64,000 nt of DNA. Origin: Heloderma charlesbogerti. Its lineage: Eukaryota; Chordata; Lepidosauria; Squamata; Helodermatidae. Positions 632 to 62,427 of this stretch are shown here, piece after piece. Each line of letters begins with the position of its first letter. The first letter of the stretch is position 1. Made by a program: the position numbers and the translations under genes. The notes beneath the pieces are model-generated. The model saw nothing but the letters and a program-made list of their open reading frames with translations, had not been told where the DNA came from and made no database searches. The stretch lies in NCBI GenBank assembly GCA_026122225.1, contig JANEZZ010001865.1, forward strand, positions 186,001 through 250,000, written 5' to 3'.

Positions 632-38093
<37,462 letters not shown>

Positions 38094-40430: not shown

Positions 40431-43091
40431 TGCTTTACTGGTTTGTAGCAGACATGGGGGTAAATGAGTTTCTATGTGAGAATCTCTGTAGATAAAGGAA
40501 ATGGGGGATTTGGAGGGCAAACTGAGGCAGTGGTTTTCAGATTGTGTTCCAGGGAACCCTGGGGATTCCTCAATAAGAAAACCAGCAGTGTCGGACAAGA
40601 TTATTTGGAAGATAGTTTGCTTGCTACTATCCATCTAACCCTACAGCGCATAGAGACTGGGAAGTGCTGGGTTTGTTCTTGGGCGCACACTCTGCTCATG
40701 AGAGATAACACGGAGGCCTGGCCACAATATGGGATGCACCCTAACATCCCACCCCCTAACATTTCCAGAGTCCTCTGCAACATGAGAGGTGTTCTGTGTC
40801 AGCTGTGCAGGGATTCCTTGGCACAGGGATTGATTTTATTGGTTTCAAATATTTTGATACCACTTTTCCAGGTAGTTTAGATGTGGTTCCTTCTCAACAG
40901 AAAAAATAAACTAAAAAAAAAATACAGTATCAGAAATATCAAAGAGAACAAATTAAAACAACCAGAGGGAGACCCAGTTCAGCCAAAAGCTATTCCGTTC
41001 TGCATTGTATGTTGCTTTCTATGAGGAGCTTCAAAAGCAGAGTGTAATATGGCATGTGTGTGTGGCCAGGAGGGAACAAGGGGCTGCTGTTACAGAGAAA
41101 AAGTTAGAAGCCAAATGGCCACATGAAGTTTGCTGGATTGCAGATGGTACTGATTAAAACAAGCCCCAGTTAAAATGTATGGGTAGGATCCAAACAAAAT
41201 TAAACACTTTTTAAGTCCCATTGGTTTCAGTATGAAAACATTAAGCATGGACTAACCTTTCACATTGAAATCAGTTAGGACCAAACTATTCCCCCCCCCA
41301 CTTATGGGAAAATAGCACGGTACTTATATTTTCCCCCAATAGGATGAAAATCAACCGAGGACTGATTTTGAGTGAGGAAAATGGCCGGACATGAAAGAAC
41401 TAAGCAGCCTCTCCACACTATTCAAGCTAGCATCCTCTGTAGCTCCTTTTTTTAACTCGGGAAATGTAACCGAGCAATATGTGTACTTTCAGAATTAGGT
41501 CTCGCTGATTTCAACAGAAAAATATAACACATGCTCAATACTCACCCACAGTTGGCATTAAATGTGCTTGGGTTGAATACAGACTAGGTTAGTTGAACTT
41601 AATTCCCACTCAAATCAATGGGACTTAAAATCATGATTAATTTCTGATATTGATTTCAGTGGGATCTCTGGACAATTAATTTAGTCTATCAGTTTTGGCT
41701 GGGCTGAATCATATATATGTGCATGCGTGTGTATGTGTATATATATAATGTTAGATGTAATGTTGCTTATTAAATGTACTATATTATACATTAGAAAACT
41801 TCTCTCTGAGTCGTGTTGATGCGTATATTGCCATGAGACTACTGCCTTATTACGGTAGGACTATCACTTTAGGTTTGACTTAAAGGAGGGGTTCACACAA
41901 CCTGCAAAGCCTGACTACATATTTCCAATTTTTGTTGTTTTGAATACCATTTTGAACATTACAGAACAACACTTTGTATGTCTGTGTGACTCAGGCCATT
42001 CCTTAATCCCAGTTCAATTAACTTGATCATGCTCAAAGCAGCAAACTATTTAAAAGATGGGAATAAACCCTCAGTCCCCATTCTGATGCCCAATTCTAAC
42101 AAAATTGTACTTCCAGTTTTAAATCTACTCTCCAGGGAAGAGTTTTGAGACTTAATTTGAAGCCTTCGGAGACCAGTGCTATTGCAAATTCAGAATTAAG
42201 GCACTACTCGGAATTATTTCATTGGAGTGGGGGCGAGGAGGGAACCTACCCAATTTAAATGCAGAAAGAAGCCCATTTAAAATGATTGAGGTGTGTATGT
42301 GTGAAGGGAGGTAATTACAAGGAATTCCTTATTAACCTTTATATTCCAGTTGACTAGATCTGTCTATAGCCCTTAATTTACATCCCTGAAGTAGTATCCT
42401 AATACCATGGTTTGTGTAGCTGTAATGCTACATTAGTTGGCACCAATTATTCTAGGCTTCTAGAGCATGACACAGCAGCCCATAAACCTGAAAAAGTTTG
42501 GCCTAATTCACATAATAGTTGATGAAATAGTAAAAGTATTTCTGACCTGTCTGTACCACTTTGGACTTCAGGTGTGGAAGATCACATGATGGAAAGCTTT
42601 TTCCCCTTAAAAAAAGCTTCCTCCATATAGAAAAGTAGACATTAAGGAGATGAATTCTAATCTAAACGTCTTCCTGATGCGCTAGTTTTCTCTGTGCAGT
42701 GGGGAAGCATTTGTGCGTTTTCCCCACCTGCAATTTGAAATGGCATAGTTTAGGAACAGTTTTACCACTCTTTGAGTAACTGGACCTTAGTTGCATCTGA
42801 CTTCCACTGAAACTAATGGACATTAAGGTCATGACTAACTCATATCCTATGGCTTTTAAAGAACTTGCAATGTAATCCTAAACGTGGGATTTGGGCTGCA
42901 GTTCTAAAGACATTTTTAGTTCTAAGCAGATAAGCAGAGCAACCCTATGATCCCTGGGAGGGTGTCCCACAGGCCAAAGGAAATTACGGATTCTCCGCTC
43001 CCCGCAAGGCTACAGATCAAGTGTTCAGAACCTCAAGTCCCAATCTTGCCCTCCAATTTTCCCCAGAAGGCCATGCTCCTTTCCTCCAACC
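40431..43091. other. No recognisable gene or element
   Basis: Intergenic sequence upstream of ATP11B. ORFs reach at most 138 codons and show no family resemblance. Motifs such as AATCAATGGGACTTAAAATC near 41610 hint at old SINE or MITE debris only. Confidence 0.6.
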
Positions 43092-43238
43092 CACTGCAGG
43101 CTGATGGCTCCAATGTCAGTGGGATGGTGAATCCATTCTGGGTTTCAGTCAAAACCTTGGACTGCTCCTTTAGAGCTCTGACTGAAATCCGGAGTGGATT
43201 CACTGCCCCACTGACATTGGAGCCACCAGCCTCCACTT
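43092..43238. mobile_element. hAT MITE family C, copy 1
   Basis: 147 bp. Ends CACTGCAGGCTGATGGCTCC and GGAGCCACCAGCCTCCACTT are inverted repeats with mutations; interior GTCAGTGGGATGGTGAATCC mirrors GGATTCACTGCCCCACTGAC. Flanks CTCCAACC (43084-43091) and CCCCAACC (43239-43246) are a 7-of-8 match, as expected for an old 8-bp hAT duplication. Confidence 0.85.
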
Positions 43239-43944
43239 CCCCAACCATAGATTATTTGGTGGTTTTCCAGGTTTTGTGCAGTTTACCTGCATTCTAGAAG
43301 GTCAAGATGCCTCTCCGAAGCCTTAATTACTGGCAGTAAGAGTTTTAAGCTGAAATATACTGGTGTGTTTGGTTTTCTGGTCCTGCCCCCTTTCGCTTCA
43401 TCCTTGCCCGCCGCTGGAATGCAGCCCTTGAGACCTTTCCAGAATGGAATTAGGCACTCAGGCTGAAAGAGGTTCTGTATAGGACCATCTGGACGTAACA
43501 ATTTATTTTATTAAGCTGTTTTTCTGAGTATGCTAGCAACCTAAAATGTTTGTAAGGATTTCCTGTGCAGAAGTTTAGAACTGTGTACCACACACAGATA
43601 CAGATTCCAAAGGTGGCAATTTACACAACATGATTTCCTTGTTCTTGCAATGAGCCACATCATTAACTGTTCCTGGAATTGCTGACACATAGTTCACTTG
43701 TCACAATTTTAATAGCCTTTCTATGTGGGAGTCCCAGCACAAAAGTCCATGTGGAACCAGGAAAAGCATAGTGTAATCATGATCCATAATCATGTGTGAC
43801 TGGACTGAGGAAACTGAACAAACAAACCCACGTAAGCTTATGAATGGCATCAACAGTTCCTTCCCTGAACTGTCAGAGGTCAAAACCAATGAAATAATAT
43901 AGATGTTTACCTGTCGTCTTAAAATTGTAGGACTTTGTGCTGGT

Positions 43945-44440
43945 ATTTTATTATTTATTTTTTAAATTTATAAAGCACCCTTCAGCCATAGAATCCCAGG
44001 GTGGTATACACAATATTAAAAACAAACAACAAATGTAATATAAAAATCATATACTTACACATTAAAAAGCAAATGAAGTGACGGCAACACTTCGACCAGC
44101 AAGCCAAACGAAAACAGAACTATCAGTTCAGTCTAAAAATAACTTAAAATTAAAATGTTAAAATATTAAATTTAAAATGCCGAGAGAAAAAGTTGTAACT
44201 TGGTGCTGAAAAGAAAACATTGGTGCCAAGCATATCTCCTTTAGAAAATTATTCCAGTCATATCTCTTTATGAAGGGGGGCCACCACAGAGAAGGTCCTC
44301 TCCTCTTTCTCTCACTGATGGTATTCAGATAACAGCCTCCTTTGAAGCTGTTAGTGCACTGGCAGGATAGTAAGGGAGGAGGTAGTCCTTCAGGTATCTG
44401 GGTTATATAGCTGAAAATCCAAATATTGAGATATTTCAAT
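43945..44440 (-). mobile_element. Probable LINE 3' fragment, diverged
   Basis: TATTATTTATTTTTTAAAT, CATAGAATCCCAGGGTGG and CAAAAAACAAACAAC-like A-rich sequence resemble a reversed L2-type 3' UTR; GGCCACCACAGAGAAGGTCC (44280-44299) is a phrase common in reptile L2-type elements. Classification tentative. Confidence 0.4.
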
Positions 44441-45044
44441 ATTGTGGCAACATTTTAAAATCCAAATGTATTTTTGTTGGGTGTGTATTAAATAGATGGC
44501 TCCTCACCCAATATTATCAAAACATTTAAGTAGCCTTAAAAAGTATTTTAGGACTTCTTAAATGTTTTGATGCTGTAGGATGAAGAACCAGAGTGAATCC
44601 AACCAAATGTTAAAACACTCAGAGAAGAAAAATTCTACAGCATTTTGCTACAGTTAAAAATTGGATGGGAGACACTTACTGTGTTTAGGGTGGGTGGGTG
44701 GGTGGGAAGGACTTTGTAGAGGACTAACCCAAGGTTAGAAGCATGACTTTGGAAAACCATTTCTGATATATAAACCACGTCATTATCATTTGGTGTTGAT
44801 AGCATCCCTCCACAACAGGTGAGAGCTGGGGTCGTCATCTGTCCTATTTTACAGGCCACAGTCTTTGAAGATAGCTTCTGTTCGAAGGGCTGTCCAATCC
44901 GAGTCTAGGATTATATCCTCAGGGGAGTGTCAGTGATACACAACAGCTATCCACTGGCTGTCAGAAGCCACTGCAAGGAGGGAGAATTCCCCCATTTGCC
45001 CAAAACAGTTCCAAACACCTCCCAAAGTTAGTAGATCACCCTCT

Positions 45045-45290
45045 TGTGGGGGCATATTCTTTATATAACTTCTATATCTTGCCTTTTTCTTCCTAAAATG
45101 AACGCAAGGTGACATACATGATCTGCCGCCATTTATCCTCACAACAACCCTGTGGGGTAGGTTAGGCTGAAAGCAACGATTGGCCTAAAGTCACCCAGTG
45201 AGCTTCATGGTCAAATGGGAACTAGAACCTGCATCTCCTGAATCCCAGTCCAACACTCTAACCACTACACCACACTGCCTGTTCAGTGTG
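45045..45290 (-). mobile_element. CORE-SINE (MIR-like)
   Basis: Minus strand: GTGTAGTGGTTAGAGTGTTG (A box region), GCAGGTTCTAGTTCCCATT (B box region), CACTGGGTGACTTTAGGCC (CORE) and CCCCACAGGGTTGTTGTGAG. The order and spacing fit CORE-SINEs of amniotes. Confidence 0.8.
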
Positions 45291-45779
45291 GGATATAGCC
45301 AGGTTAGGAATTGCTGAGCTAGGCTTTGAACCTTAGTGACTTATATATGAGGTAAGAATTGTGGAAGCCAACACAATAAAAAGCAAACTTAGTGTAAATC
45401 AGAGATGTTAAATTAGACCATACTTGTCTGGTGGTCAACATTGTATATCGTTTTTAAATTAGCCAAAAAAAAAAAAGGCATATGAAAACCTAAGTGTGAT
45501 ACATTTCTCAGAACACATGCTTCACTTATTGCAACAGAGTAAACATCTGTCATGTGTACTACTTGCTGGAAAGCAAGCCTGTGGTTGTAAAGTCTTAAAT
45601 CATAAAACAGTGGACATTGAACCTTAAATAAAATGCACAAATTAAAGCACTCTATTTGGCAATTAAATACTCTGCATAGAGAAGTGTTGGAATGTCCTTG
45701 GAAATGTTCACAACAAAGTTGGGCAGAGTCCTGTCGGAAAAGGAACATATGCCTTATACCTTGTCAGATTATTTGTCTG

Positions 45780-45872
45780 TCTAGCCTTCCCCAACATGGT
45801 GCCCTCCAGACGTGTTGGGACTGCAACTCCTATAATTCCCAGCCAGCATGGCCATTGGCCATAGGGAAGGCT
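45780..45872. mobile_element. Hairpin MITE (CAACTCCCATCA family)
   Basis: TAGCCTTCCCCAACATGGTG, CCCTCCAGACGTGTTGGGAC and AATTCCCAGCCAGCATGGCC match the left arm of this family; the right arm is reduced to ATAGGGAAGGCTGG. Confidence 0.65.
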
Positions 45873-46701
45873 GGCCTGCTCTGACTGGAAGAGGCCCTCC
45901 AGGGTCTCAAGCACATGGTATCTGATCCTTTTAAAACAGGATTTTGAACCTGGGACTTTGGTTTTGAACCTGGGCTCTACCACTGAACTTTGGTCCCTCT
46001 CCAACTTTAGATATATTCTGCCCTAGATGGAGAGGTATGGGTAGATGGGCAGACCAGAAAATTATTAGAGACCAGCCAGTTCTGTGATGTCAAATAAGGA
46101 CTAGATATTAAAAAGCTATGAACAATACACTGTGTGTTTATTCATGTATTGTTTTCAAAATTTGTGCCCTACTTCTCCATCTTATAAGGAGGCACTCCAG
46201 CAGGGCCAGTGTCAAGGGAAGGCATAGTTGGGGCTGCGAGGGCGGGTGGAGGGGAGGCAGGATGGGGGAAGGGTTTACTGTTTGTACTGTATTGGAAAAT
46301 GGAAAAAAAAATCTAATAAAGTATTAATAACAAAAAGTAGAAGAGGAAATGCATCACCAAAAAAGAGGATATAGATTTCTACAAAATTTTCAGATGCTAA
46401 TTTGTACGTATGGGTGCAAATTTAGAAGTAATTCCTATAATTTAAATAGAAGTACAAGACTTCTCACCGTAGTGGAGAAGGTTGTGCTCAGTCTGCTGTC
46501 CAGGTGCTAAGCCAAGTGTTGATGGGCGCTGTCAATGTCCCTCCTCTCCCTTCTTGTGGTTCTGTATTTTTAAAGTGGACTTGGATGGGCCAGTCCTTCA
46601 GATAGAGGACCATCCTCTGAAAAGAAGGAAACAGGGCCACTCTAGCACTGTGGACAAAAAGGTTCATATGGGGTGAGGAAGGCTGGGACCTAAGACAGTT
46701 A

Positions 46702-46827
46702 GGGAGCAATCCTATGTATGTTTAGAAAGAAAACAAGTCTTACAACTCCCAAGCATTCCCCAGCCAGCAGAGCTCTTTCCTGGACTCTTTTTTTTTTTTT
46801 GGTCTAAACATGCATAGAATTACGCCC
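46702..46827. mobile_element. Short hairpin MITE (GGGCACAATCCTATG family)
   Basis: GGGAGCAATCCTATGTATG mirrors CATGCATAGAATTACGCCC. Flanked by TTA at 46699-46701 and 46828-46830. Contains a 12-T run. Confidence 0.85.
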
Positions 46828-46830
46828 TTA

Positions 46831-46964
46831 AGATGCATTCCTGTGCAAGTTAAAAAAGAAAAAAGTCCTACAACTCCCAGCATTCTCCAGCTGGCCATGC
46901 TGGCTGGAGAATGCTGGAAGTTGTAGGACTTTTTTCCCAACTAAACATGAATAGGATTGTGCCC
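46831..46964. mobile_element. Short hairpin MITE, adjacent second copy
   Basis: Starts at the very next base after the TTA of the neighbouring copy and ends GGATTGTGCCC before TTA (46965-46967). AGTCCTACAACTCCCAGCAT and ATGCTGGAAGTTGTAGGACT form a near-perfect 20-bp stem; CCAGCTGGCCATGCTGGCTGG is the tip. Confidence 0.85.
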
Positions 46965-47070
46965 TTAGGACTTTACAGGTGGTAACTTGCACTTTGAATT
47001 GTATCCTGAAAGGGGCCTTATTGCAATATTAACAGAACCCCACCACCACCACCAATGTCTCACACCCTTA

Positions 47071-47368
47071 GGGCACAATCCTATGCCTGTTTAGACAGAG
47101 AAAAGGCCTACAACTCCCAGCATTCCCCAGCCAGCGAGATGTGGCTGTGTCGTACAGGCATTTCCACCCTCCCCTCCCCAGAATGCCCCTTTTTGGCTGC
47201 TGCACTCCTCTTGCGAGCGCGGAGGACGGGGTTGGAGGCAGCGCGGTAGTGCGGGGAGGTCAGTTCTCCAGGAACCGACCTCGGAGCATGGGCTCTGAGG
47301 TCGGTTCCTGGAAAACCAGATAACCCATGGCCGTCTAGCTACTGTCTAGTGGCCATAGGATTGATCCC
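47071..47368. mobile_element. Chimeric MITE: short-hairpin left end, long-family right end
   Basis: Left 70 bp (GGGCACAATCCTATGCCTG ... CAACTCCCAGCATTCCCCAG) belong to the short hairpin group; from GTGTCGTACAGGCATTTCC on it follows the long group seen at 34440-34834, ending GGCCATAGGATTGATCCC. Flanks TTA and TCA. The tip holds a palindrome AGGAACCGACCTCGGAGC / GCTCTGAGGTCGGTTCCT. Confidence 0.75.
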
Positions 47369-48977
47369 TCATTGAATCAAACATTGTTTCCATTAAAAGG
47401 CTCACATTGAAATATTTGCTCAGATGTGACATTCACCATCGTGTCTTTACTTGCTGGACTGCATTTTATGGAAGTAATAACTGGTGATAATTTTGATGCA
47501 AATAAGCCATGGAATGAAATGCTCCAGACATGCTGAACTGAAAAATAAGATATAATAAGGGGTATTACAAGAAAGAGCAGAAGGGTGCAGTGCTGCTGTG
47601 GCAACAAATTGGCAAGCTATGAGACACGTATTTTGTGCTAGCTAAACTCACTGTGATGTTGTTCTTAACATTTATTATTTGTTAAGGCACTGTACATACA
47701 ACAAGGAAGATGCTGTCCCTGCCTGCAGGCTGACAGTCTAAAGCAGACATGACACATGAGGACAATAATGGAGTGAAACAGATGGAAATTGGAAATAAAA
47801 GATAAGGGGTTGAGCTAATGTGAGGAGGGGAGAAGGATTAAAGTGAAAAGGCACTAAGCATGACAGAAAAGGCAAGTTTTAAGGATTTATGATATTGTCA
47901 GCTAGGGTGTTCTTAGTAACAGTGGTTGAATCCTGATCTGGATTGCAATAGCAGCTTTAAATGGTCTTGCCGGTATCTATAGGCCTTTTCACACATTAAA
48001 CAGGGTAAATCTGAGTCTCCTACTGGACGTACATCAGTCTTGGCTCCCTAATGCAGGAGTAGTCAACATTTTTTGGGCCATGGGCACATTTGGCAATTTG
48101 AGAAACTGTCCTGGGCACCACCACAAAATATCAAAGGGCTTTCTTCTATTTGAAGATGTCCTCTGTTTGAAGGGCTGACCTCTCCAGGTCCAGTTTAAAG
48201 ATAAAGAAACATAGGCAGGAGAGGCAGTGGCCTTGAAGTTAGCACCTGGACAGCAGGAACCCAGGTAGGGTTGGACCTTGGAGGCAAAGCCCAGGGCCCC
48301 CATAGCTCAGTGGGCCTCAAATGACTGTCCAGTGAGTGGCAGGTGACAGGGGTAGCAGCAAAGAGACCCCTCCTTAGCACCTGGGCCGGCATAGGCATGC
48401 CAGAGCCCACCAGGGCTGGCACTGCTCAGCACAGCCGCCTTTCTTTCCTCTTATTTCTGAAACACTTAAAAGTTAGTGGGCTGCTGAGTGGATGAATACA
48501 TGATGACAGATGCTTGTTTTATTATTTGTACTTATCCTTTTTTTCAACACGTTGGTGCTTATTTCCAAGAAAATGTGTTTAGCAACAGGGCAGAAGAAGT
48601 AAACTCCATTTTATTCCTGTAGTCGTGAAAATGCTCTGACTTAAGCAAGTTTAAAATACAACCCTACACATTCTCAGATTGTTTCTTTTTTTAAACCAGG
48701 GTTGGTGAACAGTCCCCCCAGCCCTCACCATAACAAATCTGGAATGTAGAAGATTGTAAAGTATGGAATCGTGGGGAGAAGGGACATGTCAGTTGTGTGC
48801 TTCAGAACTAAAGTGGCTAAGTAAAGGATCCCCCATAAAACCATTATGTCCAGGGTCTAGGATTAGCTACCTGCATCACTGCCTAGGTCTCTTGGTCACA
48901 GTCTCCCCCACTGTAGTATTGTATATGTATTGTATTTCCATTTCAATTATAGCAATTATTTCTAAATTTGTACCTTT
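47369..48977. other. No recognisable gene or element
   Basis: Intergenic. A tract at about 48035-48190 (AGTAGTCAACATTTTTTGGG; CCTCTGTTTGAAGGGCTG) looks like diverged transposon debris; nothing else supportable. Confidence 0.5.
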
Positions 48978-48990
48978 ACATACAAATTTT

Positions 48991-49448
48991 GTTGTTGTTC
49001 AGTTGTTAAGTCGTATCTGACTCTTCGTGACCCCATGGACCATAGCACGCCAGGCCTTCCTGTCCTCCACTCTCTCCCGGAGTGTGCTCAAGTTCATAAT
49101 CATTGCATCGGTGATGCTATCTAGCCATCTCATGCTCTGCCGCCCCCTTCTCCTTTTGTCTACAATCTTTCCCAGCATCAGGGTCTTTTCCAGGGAGTTT
49201 TCTCTTCGCATTAGGTGGCCAAAATATTTGAGCTTCAGCATCTGTCCTTCCAATGAGCAGTCAGGGTTGATTTCCTTTAGGATGGACTGATTTGACCTCC
49301 TTGCAGTCCAGGGGACTCATAAGAGTCTTCTCCAGCACCACAGTTCGAAGGCATCAATTCTTCGGCACTCAGCCTTCCTTATAGTCCAGCTCTCACAGCC
49401 ATACGTTGCTACTGGGAAAACCATAGCTTTGATTATACGGACCTTAGC
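48991..49448 (-). mobile_element. RTE-BovB LINE, copy F, 5'-truncated
   Basis: 458 bp of BovB 3' end, minus strand, coding GCESWTIRKAECRRIDAFEL and, frame-shifted, LKYFGHLMRRENSLEKTLML. Flanks ACATACAAATTTT (48978-48990) and ACATGCAATTTTT (49449-49461) look like a decayed target duplication (11 of 13). Confidence 0.88.
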
Positions 49449-49564
49449 ACATGCAATTTTTCTCCAAATCTGCATCTTCTTTTCTCGTGGTGCATTTCCT
49501 CTTTTTTGTGTGATGTGTAAGTTGAAACACGTGCACTGTATTAAGTCACATACACACCACACTT

Positions 49565-50405
49565 ATCCCTAAGAAAGTAATAATTTATTTGGTCACTTAT
49601 TTATTATATTTCTCTGTGGGCCAAAGCTGAAGATCTCTGGATGGTTCACAACAATTAAAACCATAAAATACAACACAATAGCACAAAATATAAAAGTTTA
49701 AAGGTACAGTAAAAAATAAAAGCCAAAATAAAACCTATCAGCAGTGCAAAGATTCCAAATCCAGTAATAGATTTAAAACAACAGAAACTGAAAGACTAAA
49801 ATGCCTGGGAAAATAAGGTCTTCACCTGGAGCCAAAAAGAGTACAACATAGGCACCGATTCACAATGGCCTCACCCAGATTTAATTAAAAGGACAGGTGT
49901 CATCTGCATATTGGTGACACCTCGGCTCATACCTCCAAACAATAATCCCCTTGCACCACCTATCCAAGTAGAAGCGGAACCACTGCGGTGCAGTACCTCC
50001 AACTCCCAGCCCAGATAGCCTATCCAGAAGGATACCATGGTTGATGGTATTGAAAGCTGCTGAGAGGTCCAAGAGAATCAACAGGGTTGCAGTCCCCCTA
50101 TCCCGCTCTTGGCAAAGGTCATCCGACACGGCAACCAGTTTCAGTTCCGAAACCAGGCCTGAAACCCGATTGAAATGGATCTAGATAATCAGTTTCATTC
50201 AAGAGTGCCTGGAGTTGACTGGCAACCACTTGCTCAAGCACCTTGCACAGGAAGGGAATGTTGGCTACTGGCCTAGAATTGTTGACATCATCCAGGTCCA
50301 GATTAGGGTTAATTTTTTCAAGAGTGGCCTAACTGCCTCCTTTAAGGAGGCCAGTACCACCCCTTCTCTCAAGGAGGAGTTTACAACCTCCAATTTACAA
50401 TAATT
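49565..50405 (-). mobile_element. L2 LINE, degenerate, with internal deletion
   Basis: Minus strand: reverse transcriptase pieces SLKEAVRPLLKKLTL, then NETDYLDPFQSGFRPGF in shifted frame, TATLLILLDLSAAFNTINHG and LDRLSGLGVGGTAPQWFRFY, then a jump to YADDT near 49895. The 3' end (about 49565-49700, reversed) has an (AATA)-type tail. Palm sequence between SYLxxR and YADD is missing. Confidence 0.85.
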
Positions 50406-50726
50406 GCCATCTTTAAGACACATCTTGTTAATATTTGGGGAAGACAAAATTTCATTTTGCACTTAGCATGCAGCAAAGTTGAATTTCAAACAGCACTTCT
50501 AACATCACTATCGATTCAGGGAAATCAATCAACTTCTATTATGCCAAGAATGACTTCATAGCAGTGGCCCTGTGCCCAGATACGCGACTTTTGAAAAAGC
50601 TCCTGGTGAAAAACTTAACTGATCTGATCAGCATTCTTATGCTTGTCTTTCAGAAACAATGGAATCTGAGGCAGAAGACAAGTTCTCTCTCAAGAGGACA
50701 GCTGTACATCTTCCAACCTGGCTAAC

Positions 50727-51560
50727 TGTAAGGATTTTCTTGGGCCTTGCATTACATTTGCGTACAATATGGGGAGGGTTTAAAGCTAACGGGCAACAGG
50801 GCAAGTAGGGGAGTAAGAGCATGCTAGATGCTGATACTGATAAGAGATGTTTTGATAACCTTCCAACATTATCAACTGTGTCTTCCTTATAAGGAAACTG
50901 GGTAAAAAGTAAGGGGTCATAGATAAGAACACGTTGTGGTTTGGGATTCCCCTTTCTGGAAATAAAGGGAAGAAAAAAGGAGCTATTGACCACATAAAAG
51001 GAGAACTTAGACCTGTTTTACAGTAAACAAGAGGTAGGAGGGAATATTTGGGAAATGTATCATGAGATGGGACGTATAGGATGACATGGACCAATAGTTG
51101 TAAAGATTTTGCAATATGTATTAGAGGGGAGGACACCAACTTTGAGAAGGTATATAACAGAAGAGATCTGGGTCTTCTTTCTTTACTCTGGGCTGAGCCT
51201 GCTACACGGTGGTCTATTTAATAGGCCATGGTTGAAGCCAGGGTTCGGAGTGGGAGAGAGTCCCTTTACCGTTTTGGGTAGAGTAGCGCTTTGTGAGTAT
51301 GGCTTTGCTTGGTTGAAGGTTTGTGTGCTTTTTAAACTTTTCTTTATCTTTCTTTAATAAATGTATTTAGCTTATGTCATTGTTTTAATCCTAATTCATA
51401 GAATTTAAGTAAATCAGGGTGCATGTGAACACTCTGGTCTCAGTCCCCAAAGGAACCACGCCTACCACATCAGGGCCAAACTCAGGCTGTTTAAAGTAGA
51501 TTTGCCTAAGTACCCAATACCAGGGACCTTGAAATTTTAACCTCCAGTTTTTCCCTTACA
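50727..51560 (+). mobile_element. LTR of an unidentified LTR retroelement (5'-type LTR)
   Basis: 834 bp. Begins TGTAAGGATTTTC and ends TTTTTCCCTTACA, so the termini are inverted TGTAAGG/CCTTACA with canonical TG...CA. Contains a TATA box TATATAA (51151-51157) and AATAAA (51356-51361) about 200 bp later, the order expected for U3-R-U5. The flanks CTAAC and GATTA do not match, so this is not a solo LTR; a primer-binding-like site follows at once. No gag, pol or second LTR is recognised downstream, so the rest of the element is lost. Orientation is antisense to ATP11B. Confidence 0.72.
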
Positions 51561-51563
51561 GAT

Positions 51564-51582
51564 TAATGATCCTTCCGCAGGT
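51564..51582 (+). promoter_or_regulatory. Primer-binding-like site complementary to the 3' end of 18S rRNA
   Basis: TAATGATCCTTCCGCAGGT is the exact reverse complement of the last 19 nt of eukaryotic 18S rRNA (...ACCTGCGGAAGGATCATTA-3'). It starts three bases (GAT) after the CA that ends the LTR, the position and length of a retroelement primer-binding site. After 19 nt the match stops: the rRNA complement would continue TCACC, here it is AGGTT. Role as a primer site is inference. Confidence 0.6.
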
Positions 51583-52175
51583 AGGTTCCTTTAGTGGGAG
51601 TTGAGATGTGGAATGTTTAAGGATGAATGTTGTTTGTGCTGCTTTTGTTAACATAACATAACAATGTATTTCCCTCCCCCACTCAAAAGATAGTTGCTGT
51701 AATGCTCTGTGAATGAAAGCACGTTATAAATGTTAACAGGAACATTTGCAAAACACCTCCATCTATCTTGTTTTGAAAGGGCTAATAGCTTTGGGAAATA
51801 GTGCTATGATCAAATAAAGTAAACAGCGTTGTTGCAGGTTGAGGACACTGGCCAGGATCCAAAGAGGTACTTTAGGCATGCCTGAAGGCTTGGACATGTT
51901 CAGCCAGTTTTGTGACTTTTTATCTGAACAGCAGACCTCTCCACTCATGTCAGATATCTTCTTCGGTTGTTGGACGGTTTGGAAAGTTAAGAAATAAAAT
52001 AAATAAAAATACATGCCACAATCTGTTTTTGGAAGTCCCCTTAGATTCAAAAGTGGCTATGTGGCATAGAGGGTGATGTTCAAGAAAGCACAGGAACAAA
52101 GCCTCATGGAATTTGGACCCATGGAATTCATTGTGCAGTTCTGTGGATCCCGGCCATAGTTATTTACACTACAAG

Positions 52176-52342
52176 CAGTGGAGGCTGGTGGCTCCAATGT
52201 CAGTGGGGCAGTGAATCCACTCCAGGTGTCAGTCAGAACTGGCCAGCACCCTGGATAGCTTCTTTAGAGTTCCGACTGGTTCTGACTATAACTTGGAATG
52301 GATTCACCACCCCACTGACATCGGAGCCACCACCCTCCACTG
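52176..52342. mobile_element. hAT MITE family C, copy 2
   Basis: 167 bp. CAGTGGAGGCTGGTGGCTCC at left; right end GGAGCCACCACCCTCCACTG. Flanked by a perfect 8-bp duplication ACTACAAG (52168-52175, 52343-52350). Best-preserved copy of the family in the window. Confidence 0.95.
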
Positions 52343-52357
52343 ACTACAAGCAGCATA

Positions 52358-52497
52358 GGCTGAATCTACACATAGCAGTTTTACTGTTATCATAGTGCAG
52401 TGATAACTGTTGGTGCATATGACACCAATGGGTGTCATGTTATCACAATAGTTATCCCTGGTAAAACTGCTGTGTGTAGATTCAGCCATAGTCTTGC
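52358..52497. mobile_element. MITE family E (GGCTGAATCTACACA ends)
   Basis: 140 bp hairpin: GGCTGAATCTACACATAGCA and TGCTGTGTGTAGATTCAGCC; CAGTTTTACTGTTATC pairs with GTTATCCCTGGTAAAACTG. Flanked by ATA on both sides. Confidence 0.88.
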
Positions 52498-52534
52498 AAC
52501 ATCAGAAAAAGTGCATTAGCTCATTTCGCCCAAG

Positions 52535-52613
52535 CAGCAGATAAGGTGATAAACCTGTTTCGGGACTATACCATGTCAGAGTACAGGTGGGGGATTGCAT
52601 GGTTGAATGCTGC

Positions 52614-52661
<48 letters not shown>

Positions 52662-52826
52662 CCCCTGCACAAAGAAAAATACAATGCCAGGCTAGAAACC
52701 TCCTCCCTGACATATATTTGCTTGGTTATTTGTATGGAGGGGCATTTAGTCATGCAATCGCCCCACCCCACCCCCAGCAGTCTGAAGTGGTACTGTCTAG
52801 GAACAGGTTTATCACCTTGCTTGCTG
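52535..52826. mobile_element. MITE family F with central (AAT)n microsatellite
   Basis: AAGGTGATAAACCTGTTTCG at left mirrors GGAACAGGTTTATCACCTT at right, followed inward by ACTATACCATGTCAGAGTAC and GTCTGAAGTGGTACTGTC. A (TAA)n array occupies 52617-52661. Confidence 0.82.
52617..52661. repeat. (TAA)n microsatellite
   Basis: About 15 uninterrupted units; open frames of poly-Asn and poly-Leu over it are artefacts. Confidence 0.97.
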
Positions 52827-52865
52827 TTAGTGTGAACTAGGACTTTATGGTTTGGGTCTTTCTTC

Positions 52866-53001
52866 AGAGGTAGGGAAACTGTGGCCCTCTAGCTGTTTTT
52901 AGATTACAACTCCCATAATCCCTGACCACTGACTATGCTGGCCAGGGCCGATGGGAGTTAATCCAAGAACATCTGGAGAGCTACAGGTTTCTCACCCCTA
53001 C
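52866..53001. mobile_element. Hairpin MITE (CAACTCCCATAATCC family)
   Basis: AGGTAGGGAAACTGTGGCCC and ACAACTCCCATAATCCCTG at left; GGGAGTTAATCCAAGAACATC and GAGCTACAGGTTTCTCACCC at right. Confidence 0.75.
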
Positions 53002-54159
53002 TTAAGACTCTTCAGAATTGATTTCAGACATTCCAACTATCCTTATTTACCAGGAATGGTCTCAATTTGTTTTCTGTTTTTCCTGATAAAATCCCTCCCC
53101 TCTTTTTTTTTAGATGCTGTATTAAAAGTGAGTTTCCATGGGTTGTAGCAACATCATTCTTCAGCTGCCTCCATAGTGTCTCTGGAAGTTAAATCTTTGG
53201 TGGGGTGATGGATGTATCTTGTCTCTAATGTGCATATAATGCACATGGATGAACACTAAGGCACCATGCATAGCTAGCTATAGTACACATTTGCTAAAAT
53301 GACCTTGGGTTTTAAATGAATGGCGTTTAGGTTATTTTAAAGTAAATGTAGCTGGAAAAGCTATCTCAAATATTGAAGGGGATTTAACCTCACAGAGTGA
53401 TTGATCTTTGGTACGGGCAAGAAAAGAGCCTTCATATGCATGCCTTTATCTCTCTCTGTGGAATGTTAGAGGGCATGTGATCTCTATATGTCATATGCTT
53501 TCAGAAAAAAGAAGGTCTTTATTGCCTTAGGAATAATCCAGAATATGATGCTCATGAGACTAAAGAGATGTATGTAGCTTGAAGACTTGCCCAGACATAT
53601 AAAATGAAGTTGTTGTCTATCTTGCTGCCACAACAAGGCAAACATTTGTTAAGTTGGGCAAGATGCACTTTTGCAGGCTCATGAAATTATCTGAGAAAAA
53701 TGAATGATGGCTCAGATATTGCTTCATTCTGAGATCATATGAAATGACTTCTGTCCTGTAGGTAGGTAAAATGGCCAAATATATCCAATCACCCATTCCG
53801 CTTTACACAAGCCCGCTATTTTCCAGTTCTTTCTCTATTGAAAAATGGTTTCAGTTGCTTAATTAGCCATTTCAAGTCTCCTGAGACATAACATAAGCAG
53901 TAGCCTTAGTAATTGCCACCTGTAGCCAAACAGATATAAGACGTGGATGATGATATAAACAGTTGTTTTATTCTTACCCATAATGGAAACTCTTGCTTTT
54001 TTAAAACAACAACCCGAAATGAACTATCATCTGTAGTAGATGCGCTGAATATATAACATTCCTGAGAAAGTCACTTGGCTATAGTAACACCTGCCTTTAG
54101 TTACATCAAAATTGAATTCCTGTTACATCAAATTACATCAAAATTGAATTCTCTTCAGC
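53002..54159. other. No recognisable gene or element
   Basis: Intergenic AT-rich sequence. Near 54094-54150 the phrase ACATCAAAATTGAATTC occurs twice, a small local duplication just before the CR1/L3 element. Confidence 0.5.
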
Positions 54160-55710
54160 TTGTTCATAAATGGTCTAGAATTAGGAGTCGGCAGTGAGGT
54201 GGCCAATTTTGCTGATGACACCAAATTATTTTGGTTAAAACCAAAAGGGATTCTGAAGAGCTCCAGAAGGATCTCTCCAAACTGAGAGAATGGTCATAAA
54301 ATGGCATGCGCAGTTCAGTGTAAGCAAGTGTAAAGTGATGCACATTGTGGCAAAAACTCCCAACTTTGCATATAAGCTGATCTGAGCGGGTAGTGACTGA
54401 TCAAGAAAGAGGTATTGGGGTTGAGGTGGACAGCTCCATGAAAAAGTTAACCCACTGTCCAGCTGCTGTGAAGAAGTTAAATTCCATGTTAGGCAAAATT
54501 AGGAATGGAGTAAAAAATAAAACTGGCAAGGTAATACTGCCCTTCTACACATCTATGGTGTGACCACATTTGGAATATTGTGTACAGTTCTGGTCACTGC
54601 CCCTAAAAAGGGTATCATAGAGTGAAAAAAAAAACTGTAAAAAAAGAGTAACTAAATGATCAAGAAACTGGAGCAGCTCCCATATGAGGCAAAGTTACAA
54701 CATCTGGAACTGTTTAGCTTAGAGTAATAGCAAATGAAGGGAGACATGATAGAGGTGTACAAAATTATGTATGGTGGAGAAAGTGGATAGGGAGACATTT
54801 TCCCTCTTTCTCATAATACTAGAACCTGGGGTCCTCCCATGAAGCTGATTGGTGGGAGATTTAGAACAGATAAAATGAAGTTCTTTTTCACACAGTGCAT
54901 TGTTAAACTATGGAATTCCATTTCCACAATATGTAGTGATGGCCACCAGTTTGGATGGCTTTAAAAGGGGATTGGACAAGTTGTATTGGCCCCAGGAGCG
55001 TAGCCAAGTCATTTGTAGAGTTAGTGGGGCCTAGAGATCCATAATGCTTGCTTAAGTTCATTATTGGTGCAGTTCCCATGCTAGTAAGCCTCTGAGCATG
55101 TGCAGATGAGTCAAAAGGCTGATAACAGCCTTCTTGGTGCATTCCTTGCTAATGAGGAGAGTCTTTATCTCTGATGTGCCTGCGAAGCAAAGTCTGTTTA
55201 CAGGTGGCTGTGCCTGAGAACAAACACTTCTAGCCTATGCTGAGAATGAACGGTAGGGGCACGTGCTGCTGTTACACTGCTTATTGCTAACCTGTAGAGT
55301 ATAAGACCCATTGTACCCAATGGCTCGGGGTTCAGAGAAGCTGTCTGATCTAGCCATTGGGTACACCTGTGTGCTGTAAGTTACTCAATAAAGTCTCCTT
55401 GTAAGCAAACCTTTGAGTCTGATTTATCACTATCTTGGCACTTCTAACCTAAGAGTTCAACGCCCACTGCAGGGGCGACACACAAGTTAATGGAGGAGTT
55501 GGCTATCAATGGCTACTAGCCCTGATGGCTACATGCTACTTCCAGTATGCCTCTGCATACCAGTTGCTGGGGAACATGGGCAGGAAGGTGCTGTTGCACT
55601 TATATCCTGCTTGTGGGTTTCCCATGGGCAGCTGGTTGGCCACTGTGTGAACAGAATGCTGGACTAGATGGACCCTTGGGCTGATCCAGCAGGGCTCTTC
55701 TAATGTTCCT
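54160..55710 (+). mobile_element. CR1/L3 LINE 3' portion, split by a solo LTR
   Basis: Left segment 54160-54981: GTGGCCAATTTTGCTGATGA (encodes a VANFADDT-type active site), CTTCTACACATCTATGGTGTG, ATTTGGAATATTGTGTACAG and GAAGTTCTTTTTCACACAGTG. Right segment 55483-55710: TGGCTATCAATGGCTACTAG, CCAGTTGCTGGGGAACATGG and ACTAGATGGACCCTTGGGCT, then CAGGGCTCTTCTAATGTTC. Together one element, heavily mutated, interrupted by the LTR. Confidence 0.9.
54982..55482 (+). mobile_element. Solo LTR with 5-bp target duplication
   Basis: 501 bp, from TGTATTGGCCCCAGG to GCAGGGGCGACACA, with TG...CA ends. Flanked by CAAGT at 54977-54981 and 55483-55487. TATAAG at 55300-55305 and AATAAA at 55387-55392 give a U3-R-U5 layout. 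The remaining U5 ends CGCCCACTGCAGGGGCG. No internal region, so it arose by LTR-LTR recombination. Likely retroviral; class not determinable from the LTR alone. Confidence 0.9.
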
Positions 55711-56099
55711 CCTGATGCAAATAGCAAGTGTAGACTTTTCCAATCCAGATCAGGACCATCATGGGCATCAAGGGTTAATGACCCCCTCCGCCCCATGGGC
55801 CCAATGGAGTCCCCCACCCCCCGCTATTTACATTTTAAAAGTCATTCAGACACTTGTGATTTGCCTGAATAACTTCACAACCTGCATGTCCTGCTCCCTC
55901 TAGGATTCCATCATCTGCTCTAGGCAATAACTTGGGTATAGAGGCACAACATAGGACAGGCAGCTGGCTCACATCAAAATCTTGACTCGGTTTCAGTACC
56001 ATGGACAGCAACTCTTGAGCTAGAGTACTAATAAATTACCCAGCATTGACTGGGAGCAACCAGCAGGGATTTATAGTCAGGCAAGGAGAGTCTTCTTGG

Positions 56100-56570
56100 A
56101 AGTTCCACCCCCTCCGGTGCTGTATCTGGTTGTTAAAAGGCCAGAGTCCTTTTCCTGTGGGCACTGGCTTCTCCTGGGGAGTGAAGATTAGTGGGATGAC
56201 GAACTAGTTGGGGACTGTTCCTCAGCATTTCCCTGTCCACTAGAGGACTCTGAAGTCCATTCCTCAGAGTCAGGGGGCAGTAGCAATTGCTGGGGGTTGC
56301 GTGGATAGGATATAATTTCCAAGGCAGTGGCCCCCAGTTCAGAAGGACCATGGGATTGTTCTGGCACCTTCTCGCAGTCACTGTTGCTCCAAGGGCTCCT
56401 GGGCTTGGGCCGTGACAGTGGGTTGATATACAGTGTGTACCCAATCAAAGTGTAACATGGGAAGTATCCCTTAGAGCCACACTGAATTGTTCCCTGTTGC
56501 AAACAATGGCTGAGGTTGTGCTGTTTTCGTGGCTTTGGATCCCAGGTAATTGAATCCAATTGCTTTGACC
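56100..56570 (-). mobile_element. LTR-like or gag-like sequence of unidentified element
   Basis: Minus strand carries acidic, serine- and proline-rich coding flavour (PPDSEEWTSESSSGQ) similar in style to 5040-5640 and to 56990-57290. Boundaries unresolved. Confidence 0.3.
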
Positions 56571-56809
56571 TTTCAATCAGCTCTTATTTATTGCAGGCAA
56601 CATTTAACTAGACAGGCTATTTTCTTTTTAGACACTCCACTCATTATCCCGATGTTTAGTTTTGCGTTGTCTCTGAAGATTGATTGCTCTGGACCATAAT
56701 CTAAAGCTTTGTGATGGAAAATCAGCTGCTGATTTTCCATGCAACTGGTGCTTGTGCCCAGTCATTTAGTGTTTGGGGAATGAGAAAGCCTTAAAATAAG
56801 TCTTTTTAT

Positions 56810-57803
56810 CAGGGGTGTTGAACCTATTTCAGCTCAAGGGCTGAATTAAATTTCAGAGAAGTTCTCTGGGGCCACATTCCAGTGGTGGGTGGGACCAAAG
56901 TCAAAGGGTGGGGCCAAAAAGAGCAGCATAGTTTTGATTAAAGCTCTTACTGGCAGTAACTACTTTTAGAATGGGAAGAATCTGTGCAAAAGCCGGAAAC
57001 CACCAGACTGTCATGCCCTACCTGGAGGAGAGTTCGTCTGAGGAAGGAGAGGAGGGGAAGAGCCAGCACAATGGGCCCCAGCCAGAGCTAAGCAGGGAAC
57101 AGGAGGCGTTGGCTGACAGTCCTCTCCTGGAAACATTACAGGAGCGACCTGGCCCCACTTGAGCAGTTCCTGAATTTCCCCAAATGCTGGAAGCAGAGCC
57201 TGAGATAATTCATCCCTCTGAACGGGATAGAATCAGACATGAGCAGCAAAAGAACAAAAGGAAGTCACAGCATAGGGCCTCCCTTAAAAGCAACAAGCTG
57301 ACTTAATTAGCCAGCTGTGTTGATTAACAACTAGAAATTCAGCCCCGCAGATGCCAACTGTGTCCTGCAAACAACAGTGCCTTAACCTCAGCTTTGGTAT
57401 TCCAAAATACCAGATCTGACAGGCTCCTAAACCTTCAGCTACCTATCTGGGCAACGCTTTTGGACACCCCCCTGACTGGCCTTGGCACTTGATAAAACAG
57501 ATGCTGGTGAACTGACCTTTGGACTGCTTTGACCTCACCTCTGCCTGTGCTCACAAAACCTCCTTGGAATTCCTGTGTGTGACTTCAGACTGAATCGGTT
57601 GCTTTCTCGCTGCTGGTCCTGGGACTATCTGCGCCTTGTCCAAGGCCCTTGCCTGCACTGAAAAAGGACACAGATGATGGGTAAACAGGCGAAAAGGATT
57701 GGGGCCATGGGAAGGGGCATGGCCATCTGGGGAACCTCAGAGGGCTGGACCGGGATGCAAGTGGGCCAGATTTGGCCCATGGGCCTGAGATTCAACACCT
57801 TTG
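56810..57803. mobile_element. hAT-type non-autonomous element carrying foreign interior
   Basis: 994 bp. Left end CAGGGGTGTTGAACC and right end GATTCAACACCTTTG are inverted; GGGCTGAATTAAATTTCAG and CAGATTTGGCCCATGGGCC continue the two arms. Flanks CTTTTTAT (56802-56809) and CTTTATAT (57804-57811) match at 7 of 8. The interior (about 56996-57650) starts TGTCATGCCCTACCTGGAGG and encodes SSSEEGEEGKSQ, so it is probably a separate LTR-like insertion. No transposase. Confidence 0.7.
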
Positions 57804-58419
57804 CTTTATATCTTAAGCCAGAGTTGGAATGAATGCAGCCCACAGGGGTTCCCCATCTGGCAAGTGGTGGTTTCTCTCCCCAGGCCTCACCCCCTCGCAG
57901 ATCGGAGATAACAAGAGGGATTCCATTTCACATGCTAAATAATGACATGACAGCTAAACATCCCTGTCACTTGACTGCATGCCCACTCTGCTAGGTTACC
58001 ACTTGGCATGAGCCACCAGTATTTATGCAGTATTTCATTCCATATGAAGGGCATTTTTCTGCTGTAACTTGATCAAACATCCCATTCAAGTCAGTAGGAC
58101 ATCCTGGAAAATATGGTGAGGATCCTGATGCACCTAGAACCAGAAGAGTTGGAGGGGGCTTTGTAGGCCACCTAGTCTGCTCTGCTTGAAGCAGGAAATC
58201 TAGATGCAGATCATCCCCAAGAGATGGCTGTTCAGCCTCTGCTTGAAGACCTCTGGTGAGGGAGAGCCCACCACCCCTTGAGGTTGCCATTGGTTCCATT
58301 GTCAAACTGCTCTTACTGCCAAGATGACTCTCCCGCTGGTGCATATATCCCTGGATTATGACTACTGTGTTTATTTATCTTACCTATTATTTTGTATTTA
58401 TAACATTGATATCCCATGG

Positions 58420-58560
58420 TGGGACTCGATTCTCGAAGGGCTGTCAGACAGTCTCCCATCCAGGTACTGACTTGCCCCAAACCTGCTTAACATCAGCAAG
58501 GTGGCTGCATTGTGTGTCTTCAGACTGCACCCTGGGACCAAAGCATACTTTGCAGCAGGG
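58420..58560 (-). mobile_element. 5S rRNA-derived SINE fragment
   Basis: Plus strand CAGTCTCCCATCCAGGTACTG then AAACCTGCTTAACATCAGC is the reverse of the 5S internal region (CAGTACTTGGATGGGAGAC; GAAGCTAAGCAGG). Diverged; not a 5S gene. Confidence 0.65.
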
Positions 58561-58609
58561 GTAGGCAGAAGGAAGATCTCCAGAATTTTGGGACTTCCAG
58601 TTCCCGGAT

Positions 58610-58690
58610 ACCCATGTCAGCATGGCCAATGGTTAGGAAAGCTGGGAGTTGAAGTCTTAAATATCTGGAGATCTACTTTCTGACCACCCT
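58610..58690. mobile_element. MITE fragment (CAACTCCCATCA family)
   Basis: ATGTCAGCATGGCCAATGG, GGAAAGCTGGGAGTTGAAG and AATATCTGGAGATCTAC match one arm of the family. Confidence 0.55.
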
Positions 58691-59480
58691 GGCTTTGGGG
58701 TATCTGCTAGCACACTCCACTTTATGCAGCAAAGACATGAGATGTTTTTACCTACACACAAAGGAACTGTTCCTTCAGCCTAGCTGAAACAGGCAACATA
58801 AAACAAACGGGTGGCAGGAGGACAAACCATTCATAGACAAGACAGTAGTAAGGCTTACTTGCTTCATTGCTTGATGATAGCTTTGTGCATCACTTAATTA
58901 CAAGGTGGGCCATTCATAGCTATTACAATCGATTTCCTCTGCTGTGATTCCAACAGCCTTGTGCTCATTGACCGGTTAGCCAAATGAGTTGTTTGTGTTG
59001 TTTTTATGAGCCATATGTTGCCAGAATATTGCTGCTAATGTGCTTTTAATTTCATCCAACATCAATCATGCATACCCTGTTTGTTTTGAGGTTTGAAAGC
59101 CAATGAAGAAAGAAATATAGATTCATGAGGCTCAGATCTTGACAGTGTTGATAACAGCATAGTGCTATTGAATAGGAACCTTACTGTGGACTTGCTCGAT
59201 CAGATTAGGATCCAACTCAGCAGCCAGACATGTATTCACAAGGAAGCCTTGAAGGTTATGGGCTTCTCCACTTTGTCTCCAGCATATGATATTCAGAGGT
59301 ATACTGCCTCTGTACCTGGGAGTTCAAGCTTTTAACAGGTCAGAAGATCAACTCTCAATAGGGTGTCCACTTTTATAGAGCACAGTCCTCTATTTGAAGG
59401 GCTGCTAGAGTATTGTCCTCTCTCTGAAGGTGTCCTCTTATTAGAAGGGCTGTCCATTCCAAGTCTGGTTTAAAGGTTTG

Positions 59481-59766
59481 GGGCAGAATCCAACGGGGCT
59501 CTTACGTCCCTGCAAATTCTTTTCTGCCCTGCTGATTCCCTTACACAACTGGCTTGTCCTTCCAATTCCATGGTGCAAGTGGGGCTCAGAAAAAGCAGAA
59601 ATGAACTCCGTCAACTTGCTTCCTTCCAGAAATGAGCATTTCTACTTGTTTCAGGTTGACCCGGAACTGCTAAATCACCATTGCACAAGCGTTGGGGGCC
59701 ACTTGCACAACACAATTGGCAGGGTGTAAGAGGGTGGTGGCCTAAGTGCCCTGTTGGATTCTGCCC
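59481..59766. mobile_element. MITE family B, copy 2
   Basis: GGGCAGAATCCAACGGGGC at left and GCCCTGTTGGATTCTGCCC at right. Interior shares CAGAAATGAGCATTTCTAC and CTAAATCACCATTGCACAAG with 12472-12840. Flanks TTG and TTA. Confidence 0.82.
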
Positions 59767-59782
59767 TTAGAACCATCAAAAA

Positions 59783-59936
59783 CAGCGGAGGCTGGTGGCT
59801 ACAGGTTTCAGTCAGAATCAGTCAGGACTCTAAAGGAGCTATCCAAGGTGATTTACAGTTAGAGTTTTGATTGGTTCTGACTGAAACCCAGAGCAGATTC
59901 CCACCCCATTAACATTGGGGCCACCAGCCTCCATTG
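59783..59936. mobile_element. hAT MITE family C, copy 3
   Basis: CAGCGGAGGCTGGTGGCTAC at left, GGGGCCACCAGCCTCCATTG at right. About 154 bp. No target duplication is recognisable. Confidence 0.82.
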
Positions 59937-60698
59937 GTGCCTGCTGTATCTTAATATCCTCTGCCCAAGTACTTTTCATGATGTTTCTTGTGCACCACTC
60001 TCATGTCCAAAGTGGCCGCAGTTCAGGGCCAAATTAGACATGGTGAGGCCATCATTTACACATTTACACATCCACCCCATAACAATGGAGAAACGACTTT
60101 ACATAAGAGAAATAACAGGACATCAAATAAGCACAACATCACAATAGCAATTTAAGAAAGATGCAGAAGAGTGCTTTAGGGGGAGTTACTAAAGTTAGCC
60201 TTTAACCCTTTCACTGCAGAGGAGCGAGATTTATTTCTTACTTCTAATAAACATGCACAGAAGGGGGGATAAATTAAAGATTAAAAGCAGGCTATTTAAG
60301 GTGATGTGTTGTGGCAAAGCGGTTTGCGTAACTCAGTGAAGCCATAAGCTATGCTGTGCAGGGCCACCCAAGACGGACAGGTCATGGTGGAGAGTTCTGA
60401 CAAAATGTGGTCCATTGGAGAAGGAAATGGCAATCCACTCCAGTATTCTTGCCAAGAAAACCCCATGGAAGGTATCACAAGGCTAAAAGAGATGATGCCA
60501 GAAGATGAGCCCCTCAGGTCAGAAGGTGTCCAATATACTACTGGGGAAGAGCAGAGGGAATTTCCAAGTAGCGCCAGAAAGAGTGAAGTGGCTGGGCCAA
60601 AGCCGAAAGGACACTCAGCTGTGGATGTGTCTGGTGGTGAAAAGAAAGTCTGATGCTGTAAAGAACAATATTGTTTAGGAACCTGGAATGTTAGATCA

Positions 60699-61403
60699 AT
60701 GAATCAAGGTAAGCTGGAGGTGGTCAGACATGAGATGGCAAGATTGAACATTGACATCTTGGGAATCAGTGAACTAAAATGGACAAGCATGGGCAAATTT
60801 AATTCAGATGACCATTACATCTACTACTGTGGGCAAGAATCCCTTACAAGAAATGGAGTAGCACTCATAGTCAACAAAAGGGTGGGAAAAGCAGTACTGG
60901 GGTACAATCTCAAAAATGATAGCATGATCTCAGTACAAATCCAAGGCAAACCATTCAACATCACAGTAATTCAAGTCTATGCCCCAACCACTGATGCCGA
61001 AGAAGCTGAGGTTGATCGGTTCTATGAAGACCTACAACACCTTCTAGAACTAACACCAAACAAAGATGTCCTCTTCATCATAGGGGATTGGAAGGCTAAA
61101 GTAGGACGTCAAGAAATAACCGGGATAACAGGTAAGCATGGCCTTGGTGTACAAAATGAAGCAGGACAAAGGCTAATAGAGTTTTGCCAAGAGAACACGC
61201 TGATCATAGCAAACACTCTTTTCCAACAGCACAAGAGGCGACGCTACACATGGACATCACCAGATGGTCAATATCAAAATCAGATTGATTATGTCCTTTG
61301 CAGCCAAAGATGGAGAAGCTCCATACAGTCAGTCAAAACAAGACCTGGAGCTGACTGTGGCTCAGATCATGAGCTTCTTGTTGCAAAAATCATACAGGTA
61401 TGA
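60699..61403 (+). pseudogene. BovB APE-type endonuclease domain, copy B
   Basis: 234 codons open. Motifs of the APE-type endonuclease that nicks target DNA for target-primed reverse transcription: GTWNVRSMN just upstream in frame, ISELKW (catalytic Glu kept), VIQVYAPTTDAEEAE, GDWKAKVG, IDYVLCSQRW and DCGSDHELL (catalytic Asp-His). In GDWKAKVG the usual Asn of GDWN is replaced by Lys (61092-61094), so the enzyme is probably inactive. Confidence 0.85.
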
Positions 61404-62262: not shown

Positions 62263-62427
62263 GAACTACCGGAAGTACAAGCTGGGTTTCGAAGAGGCAG
62301 AGGAACTAGAGATCAAATTGCCAACATTCGCTGGATCATGGAGAAAGCAAGCGAATTCCAGAAAAACGTCTATTTCTGCTTCATTGACTACACTAAAGCC
62401 TTTGATTGTGTGGATCACAACAAACTG

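Follow-up and report, generated by a model that had tools for sequence, protein, structure and literature searches.

Retroviral primers are, to our knowledge, described as tRNAs, the exceptions being self-priming and the use of tRNA halves. A 64,000-nt stretch of the Heloderma charlesbogerti genome (contig JANEZZ010001865.1, positions 186,001 to 250,000 of the forward strand; the whole stretch is referred to here as the window, and is part of a 2.30-Gb assembly) contains a long terminal repeat (LTR) that is followed, after three nucleotides, by a block complementary to the 3' end of 18S rRNA. We conclude from sequence comparisons that this is very probably a truncated endogenous retrovirus, belonging to a family that primed its minus-strand DNA from the 18S rRNA 3' end, whole or as a fragment. 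It is also likely that an entire retrovirus lineage exchanged tRNA for the 18S rRNA 3' end as its primer, the stop by which an 18-nt site is fixed then being the conserved dimethyladenosine pair of helix 45 instead of the 1-methyladenosine m1A58 of tRNA. The support that is directly observed comprises the identity of the LTR, the place, strand and length of the site and its conservation throughout the family, a purine tract and 4-bp target duplications.

The 5' LTR occupies positions 50727..51560 of the forward strand, as do all the features given below in this paragraph, and its assignment to an endogenous-retrovirus-like family is read from its sequence and from 39 further genome copies, this number being a lower bound. 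It is an 834-bp unit with the ends TGTAAGG...CCTTACA, in which a TATATAA sequence (51151..51157), the putative TATA box of the LTR promoter, lies upstream of AATAAA (51356..51361), the putative polyadenylation signal, as is the order in LTRs. An earlier note on this DNA had described the unit in these terms, and its ends and both signals were re-read at these positions. Beyond the LTR end come a GAT spacer (51561..51563) and then the putative 18-nt primer binding site, which by sequence comparison is complementary without mismatch to the final 18 nt of 18S rRNA (51564..51581). A 19th matching base (51582..51582) would stand opposite the dimethyladenosine that corresponds to human 18S A1851. 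It is followed by a leader remnant (51583..51637, the right edge being approximate) that can be aligned to the leader behind LTR L010 of a two-LTR copy, C2955. The window copy is truncated beyond this point, and consists of a 5' LTR and ∼77 bp of interior that ends at ∼51637.

When the eukaryotic 18S 3' end is reverse-complemented, positions 51564-51582 match it without a difference over 19 nt, beyond which the match ends. The terminus itself was checked on seven eukaryotic-rDNA-like contaminants in genome_contigs, retrieved by means of the 18-mer. In five of these seven loci the end of the Rfam SSU model (1831/1831) coincides exactly with the 18-mer; for the others, the model match of L002 ends elsewhere and L003 matches nothing in Rfam. 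All seven have TTC directly behind the 18-mer, unlike the window. The loci concerned (L002-L008) are labelled as prokaryote genomes or metagenome-assembled genomes; six of the seven match eukaryotic rRNA models and look contaminated, and L003 has the 18S end but no such match. A single IMG/VR occurrence of the 18-mer (L001), met in the public viral and prokaryote collections searched, was judged coincidental. Within the window there is no second match to the site at ≤3 mismatches, such a match having appeared in 2 of 100 shuffles, and no Rfam family is found at gathering thresholds.

The 834-bp unit belongs to a genuine LTR family. Comparison of the LTR with the 2.30-Gb genome gave 46 matches, grouped as at least 40 copies including that in the window; scoring covered 40 of 586 candidates, and the copy count is a lower bound. 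Both ends lie within 3 nt of those at 50727 and 51560 in 30 of the 39 other copies. Sorted by their surroundings, these 30 two-ended LTRs comprise 23 of solo type, one (L010) that is followed by the 18S site, and six 3' LTRs (L011, L015, L021, L036, L037 and L038) that are preceded by a G-rich polypurine tract, AAGGGGGGGACT or variants of it; in the clearest copies the tract ahead of the 3' LTR reads AAGGGGGGGA. Exact 4-bp target duplications flank 15 of the 23 solo-type copies and 5-bp duplications none; with shuffled flanks, exact 4-bp duplications averaged 0.9 and never exceeded 5 in 1000 rounds. These duplications bear out the LTR boundary at 51560, on which the earlier note depended. Two of the 15 duplication-bearing copies, L029 and L030, have the same flanks and may represent one event, and L032, a solo-type copy with no duplication, is probably a 3' LTR with a variant tract. 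Copy C2955 has two LTRs on the same strand (L010 and L021), which enclose a 9.8-kb interior and show 25 differences over 874 sites (2.9%); copy C1870 has a 5' LTR fragment, a 357-nt interior and a 3' LTR. The LTR of the window differs by at least 7% from each of the 29 other LTRs compared. The earlier note had seen only one copy; this holds within the window, where blast of the LTR found no second one, but not in the genome, where 39 others were read. Two pairs of copies may reflect segmental duplication: L029 and L030 of C2711 are inverted, ∼71 kb apart and alike in their flanks, and L092 and L093 of C178, 23 kb apart, are 0.97 identical over the 40 nt behind the site.

The site itself was traced with a query made of the LTR end and leader of C2955, for which 40 of 278 candidates were scored. 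The 43 matches obtained comprise 17 that run through the site, among them the window, C2955 and C1870, together with 22 that go no further than the LTR end and four to the leader only; three of these four adjoin copies that have the site, and the fourth is C2467. In every one of the 17 site-spanning copies the 18S-complementary block stands 3 nt after the LTR end, with between 0 and 4 mismatches, and the intervening spacer has G in 16/17, A in 14/17 and T in 15/17. Of 306 cells, 26 are mismatched to the 18S complement, and the CpG of positions 13-14 accounts for 12 of these. Although the exact site is present in only 4/17 copies, the majority base equals the 18S complement at 18/18 positions, at position 13 by only 9/17. 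Agreement with 18S ends after nucleotide 18, base 19 matching in 5/17 copies and base 20 in 5/17. The exact 19-nt complement, counted from the terminal nucleotide, that the earlier note reported applies to the window but not to the family, where 18 nt are shared; the T that provides the 19th match in the window is not a family feature.

A search of the whole genome for the exact 18-mer gave four occurrences, and its reversed control gave none. All four, in the window, C1870, C178 and C1371, lie 3 nt after an LTR end of this family. The leader can be aligned to that of C2955 in 12 of the 17 site-spanning copies, and other sequence follows the site in the remaining five. After the near-duplicates C178a and C441 were dropped, ten leader-sharing copies were compared: identity is 0.87 over the site and, by gapped alignment, 0.61 over the next 40 nt, with 0.48 for shuffled leaders. 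Gapped identity was used behind the site because some leaders begin with an additional T and others do not, and ungapped counts overstate the drop. In the five copies with other following sequence, identity is 0.83 over the site and 0.45 over the next 40 nt, compared with 0.51 when shuffled. Their LTR bodies align in parts only, at 68-90% in four and not at all in C1804 at the threshold used. We considered whether these five might be DNA ends that had retained the primer, but their LTRs are too divergent and fragmentary to judge. The 18S site is present in all 12 leader-alignable copies as well as in these five, where the earlier note had looked to an ordinary tRNA site in other copies as grounds for rejecting its reading. 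In the sequence tests run, the site shows what would be expected of a conserved primer binding site.

The 22 matches that stop at the LTR end include nine at loci that had already been typed and 13 read only behind the LTR. The nine are five solo LTRs with exact duplications (L013, L023, L025, L028 and L064), two 3' LTRs (L015 and L038), L016, which has no duplication, and L033, for which there is no duplication call. Among the 13, a TGG is found within 8 nt of the LTR end in three. No TGG-type, tRNA-complementary site was met in the 17 site-spanning copies, all of which carry the 18S block in that place, no tRNA set having been compared.

Why should the site be 18 nt long? Human 18S rRNA has a length of 1869 nt, so that A1851 is the 19th nucleotide from its 3' end. 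This fits the sequence, in which GGTGAA precedes the final 18 nt; counted from the 3' end, the first A of GGTGAACC is nucleotide 20 and the second A nucleotide 19. The cited passages on human 18S rRNA place N6,N6-dimethyladenosine (m62A) at 1850 and 1851 (PMC6182160; PMC6380343), and those on other organisms describe reverse transcriptase (RT) as inhibited at the first dimethyladenosine of the small-subunit rRNA of E. coli, S. acidocaldarius and P. furiosus (PMC7897474). For tRNA-primed viruses, the passage considered has plus-strand strong-stop DNA ending at m1A58, which sets the 18-nt primer site (PMC13191261). With an RT-blocking m62A at nucleotide 19, and a family block of just the length that remains, the 18S end would by nature be an 18-nt primer that brings its own stop. 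By analogy, the length of the block fits a role for m62A in setting the stop in this host.

That 18S rRNA served as primer, as the earlier note read it, is supported by the independent copies, and its actual use in the cell is suggested by the anatomy of the site. By way of its 18-nt site the genomic RNA would anneal to the 3'-terminal 18 nt of 18S rRNA, and RT would extend the rRNA 3'-OH across GAT and U5 as far as the RNA 5' end, before transfer to the 3' LTR. The purine tract would then prime plus-strand strong-stop DNA, copying U5, the spacer and 18 nt of rRNA. This DNA would halt at the N6,N6-dimethyladenosine at nucleotide 19 counted from the 3' end (human m62A1851), and the second strand transfer would be left with a tail of exactly 18 nt. 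In tRNA primers the halt is provided by m1A58. Predicted folding energies are -32.0 kcal/mol for the 18-bp duplex, -14.4 kcal/mol for the 18S end alone, -15.9 kcal/mol for the site region alone and -42.4 kcal/mol for the joint fold, with an 18S end taken from the fetched contaminant rDNA and not from the host.

As to the type of element, copy C1868 has a broken gamma-type envelope transmembrane (TM) sequence upstream of its 3' LTR (L060:2893-3186; Pfam TLV_coat, E 4.2e-7). The best PDB match of this fragment is Syncytin-2 (E 2.1e-9) and a CX6CC motif can be read in it, in this one copy only. Target duplications of 4 bp are typical of gammaretroviruses, and together with the gamma-type TM they point to a class I-like (gamma-like) endogenous retrovirus. 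The pieces scanned with Pfam were L039-L042 (C2955), L049-L051 and L071-L072 (C1355), L058-L060 (C1868), L043 (C30) and L052 (C249); L044-L048, L053-L057 and L073-L085, outside that scan, were compared with the LTR, the interior pieces and the site only. Two RVT_1 matches were considered as the pol of the element and judged by eye to be nested long interspersed nuclear elements (LINEs). Behind the leader, at L039:602-1900, broken reading pieces look coiled-coil and gag-like by eye, and a protein search with the gag-like frame gave no match at E ≤ 1. The copies read may be deletion derivatives or non-autonomous forms. An actin-like fragment lies in the interior of C2955 (L042:1284-1604; Pfam Actin, E 5.2e-13); since this region and its surroundings align in pieces to the C1355 copy (L049, L050 and L072), the element may have captured host actin sequence.

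Other explanations of the block deserve consideration. The primer could have been a free 3'-terminal fragment of 18S rRNA, a small rRNA-derived RNA that would be more easily packaged and annealed, which is a special case of priming by 18S rRNA. A short RNA would spare the melting of the helix-45 hairpin, predicted at -14.4 kcal/mol, and the passages used, on the RNAs enriched in retroviral virions, do not name 18S rRNA (PMC4997597). Any fragment longer than 18 nt would, however, bear the same m62A, and sequence cannot separate a fragment from the whole rRNA; we regard this variant as possible rather than probable. Alternatively, the block may be a fossil accident, in which RT switched template to 18S rRNA and copied the terminal part as far as the m62A, the copy being inherited without function while another signal did the priming. 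Such a template jump would presumably likewise start at the terminus and stop at m62A. The block, however, sits in the place required of a primer site and on the correct strand, and it has been kept in 17 copies, some with LTRs that are ∼68-74% identical to that of the window in their alignable parts, while the following sequence has changed. Nor was any other site common to the copies noticed beside the LTR end, where no tRNA set was compared. An accident of this kind seems to us unlikely.

The remaining two explanations would make the block foreign to the element altogether. An 18-mer may arise by chance in a large scan, as the lone IMG/VR match appears to have done, and a misjudged LTR end might lie beside a random 18-19-mer. 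Against such a coincidence, which the earlier note already thought very unlikely for a 19-nt match, all of the exact occurrences in the genome stand behind the same LTR end, and the ends are backed by target duplications; we attach almost no weight to it. Fragments derived from 18S also exist in genomes, and an rDNA fragment or 18S retropseudogene could have been inserted beside the LTR, an outcome that the earlier note had itself put forward as fatal to its reading. Yet the match stops at 18-19 nt, there is element sequence on both sides, and the block has the same place in many copies, which makes an insertion scarcely credible.

Several points weigh against priming by 18S rRNA. The 18S end is bound within ribosomes, and the retroviral spacer is usually 2 nt, compared with 3 nt here; given an extra 3' A on 18S, GAT could be read as GA + T (T TAATG...), and the usual 2-nt spacer would be restored. 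The case for primer use is one of sequence, not biochemistry, and the presence of the block in 17/17 copies is partly circular because the query contained the site, a bias from which the whole-genome search with the 18-mer alone is free. The exact 4-bp duplication is missing in eight of the 23 solo-type copies, the outer flanks of the two-LTR copy C2955 agree at only three of four bases (TTGT and TTTT), and some of 15 site-less LTR ends, solo or proviral, could hold a different primer site. Neither a retroviral pol nor a complete gag was found with Pfam in the pieces listed above, and rDNA holding the 18-mer is absent from the assembly by exact 18-mer search, 18S not having been otherwise searched for. 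The m62A positions used are the human ones, and the RT stop is incomplete in H. volcanii according to the passage cited (PMC7897474). Finally, the passages on virion RNA list Pol III RNAs such as 5S, and 18S is not named in them (PMC4997597).

Elsewhere in the window, no retroviral protein was found near the element with Pfam (forward frames of 42327-50728 and 51583-59984, reverse frames of 51561-59962), in accord with the earlier observation that this copy has no recognisable gag or pol. Palindromic, MITE-like (miniature inverted-repeat transposable element) repeats lie at 52176-52342 and 52358-52487, the first with related copies at 43092-43237 and 59802-59936. LINE reading frames, which we take to be CR1-like and BovB-like, are present at 8691-10261, 24000-26500, 28800-29500 and 60300-63460, and repeats of these kinds suggest a squamate host.

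If priming by 18S rRNA is correct, what a primer needs is an exact 3' end and an RT-blocking base 19 nt from that end, and not a tRNA as such. An abundant rRNA could then be recruited as primer, and primer choice would become testable. Reverse transcription would also be tied to the ribosome, and nearly every eukaryote would offer the identical primer. That the conserved block and the m62A position coincide provides a strong and cheap prediction. No rRNA-primed LTR element is described in the titles and abstract openings among the matches listed from open PMC, a scope that leaves aside most subscription papers and repeat databases, and its novelty is provisional.

The family shares with class I endogenous retroviruses a TG...CA LTR with TATA and AATAAA signals, an 18-nt primer site a few nucleotides after the 5' LTR, a purine tract ahead of the 3' LTR, target duplications of 4 bp and a gamma-type TM, the last in one copy only. 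It differs from them in that the site complements the end of 18S rRNA rather than the CCA end of a tRNA, in its 3-nt spacer, and in having no pol in the pieces scanned. Self-primed LTR elements of the Tf1 type likewise do without a tRNA 3' end as primer; Tf1 reportedly primes with the 5' end of its own RNA, whereas the complement here is that of a host rRNA terminus. Elements of the copia type use a tRNA half, which is also an unusual host non-coding RNA primer, yet one derived from tRNA and not from rRNA. Chimeras made by LINEs with host RNAs such as U6 are described in the passages considered (PMC7472051). The likeness to these is that RT would copy the end of an abundant host RNA. LINE/U6 chimeras, however, are one-off events at new insertions, in contrast to the conserved site that is found here inside an LTR element.
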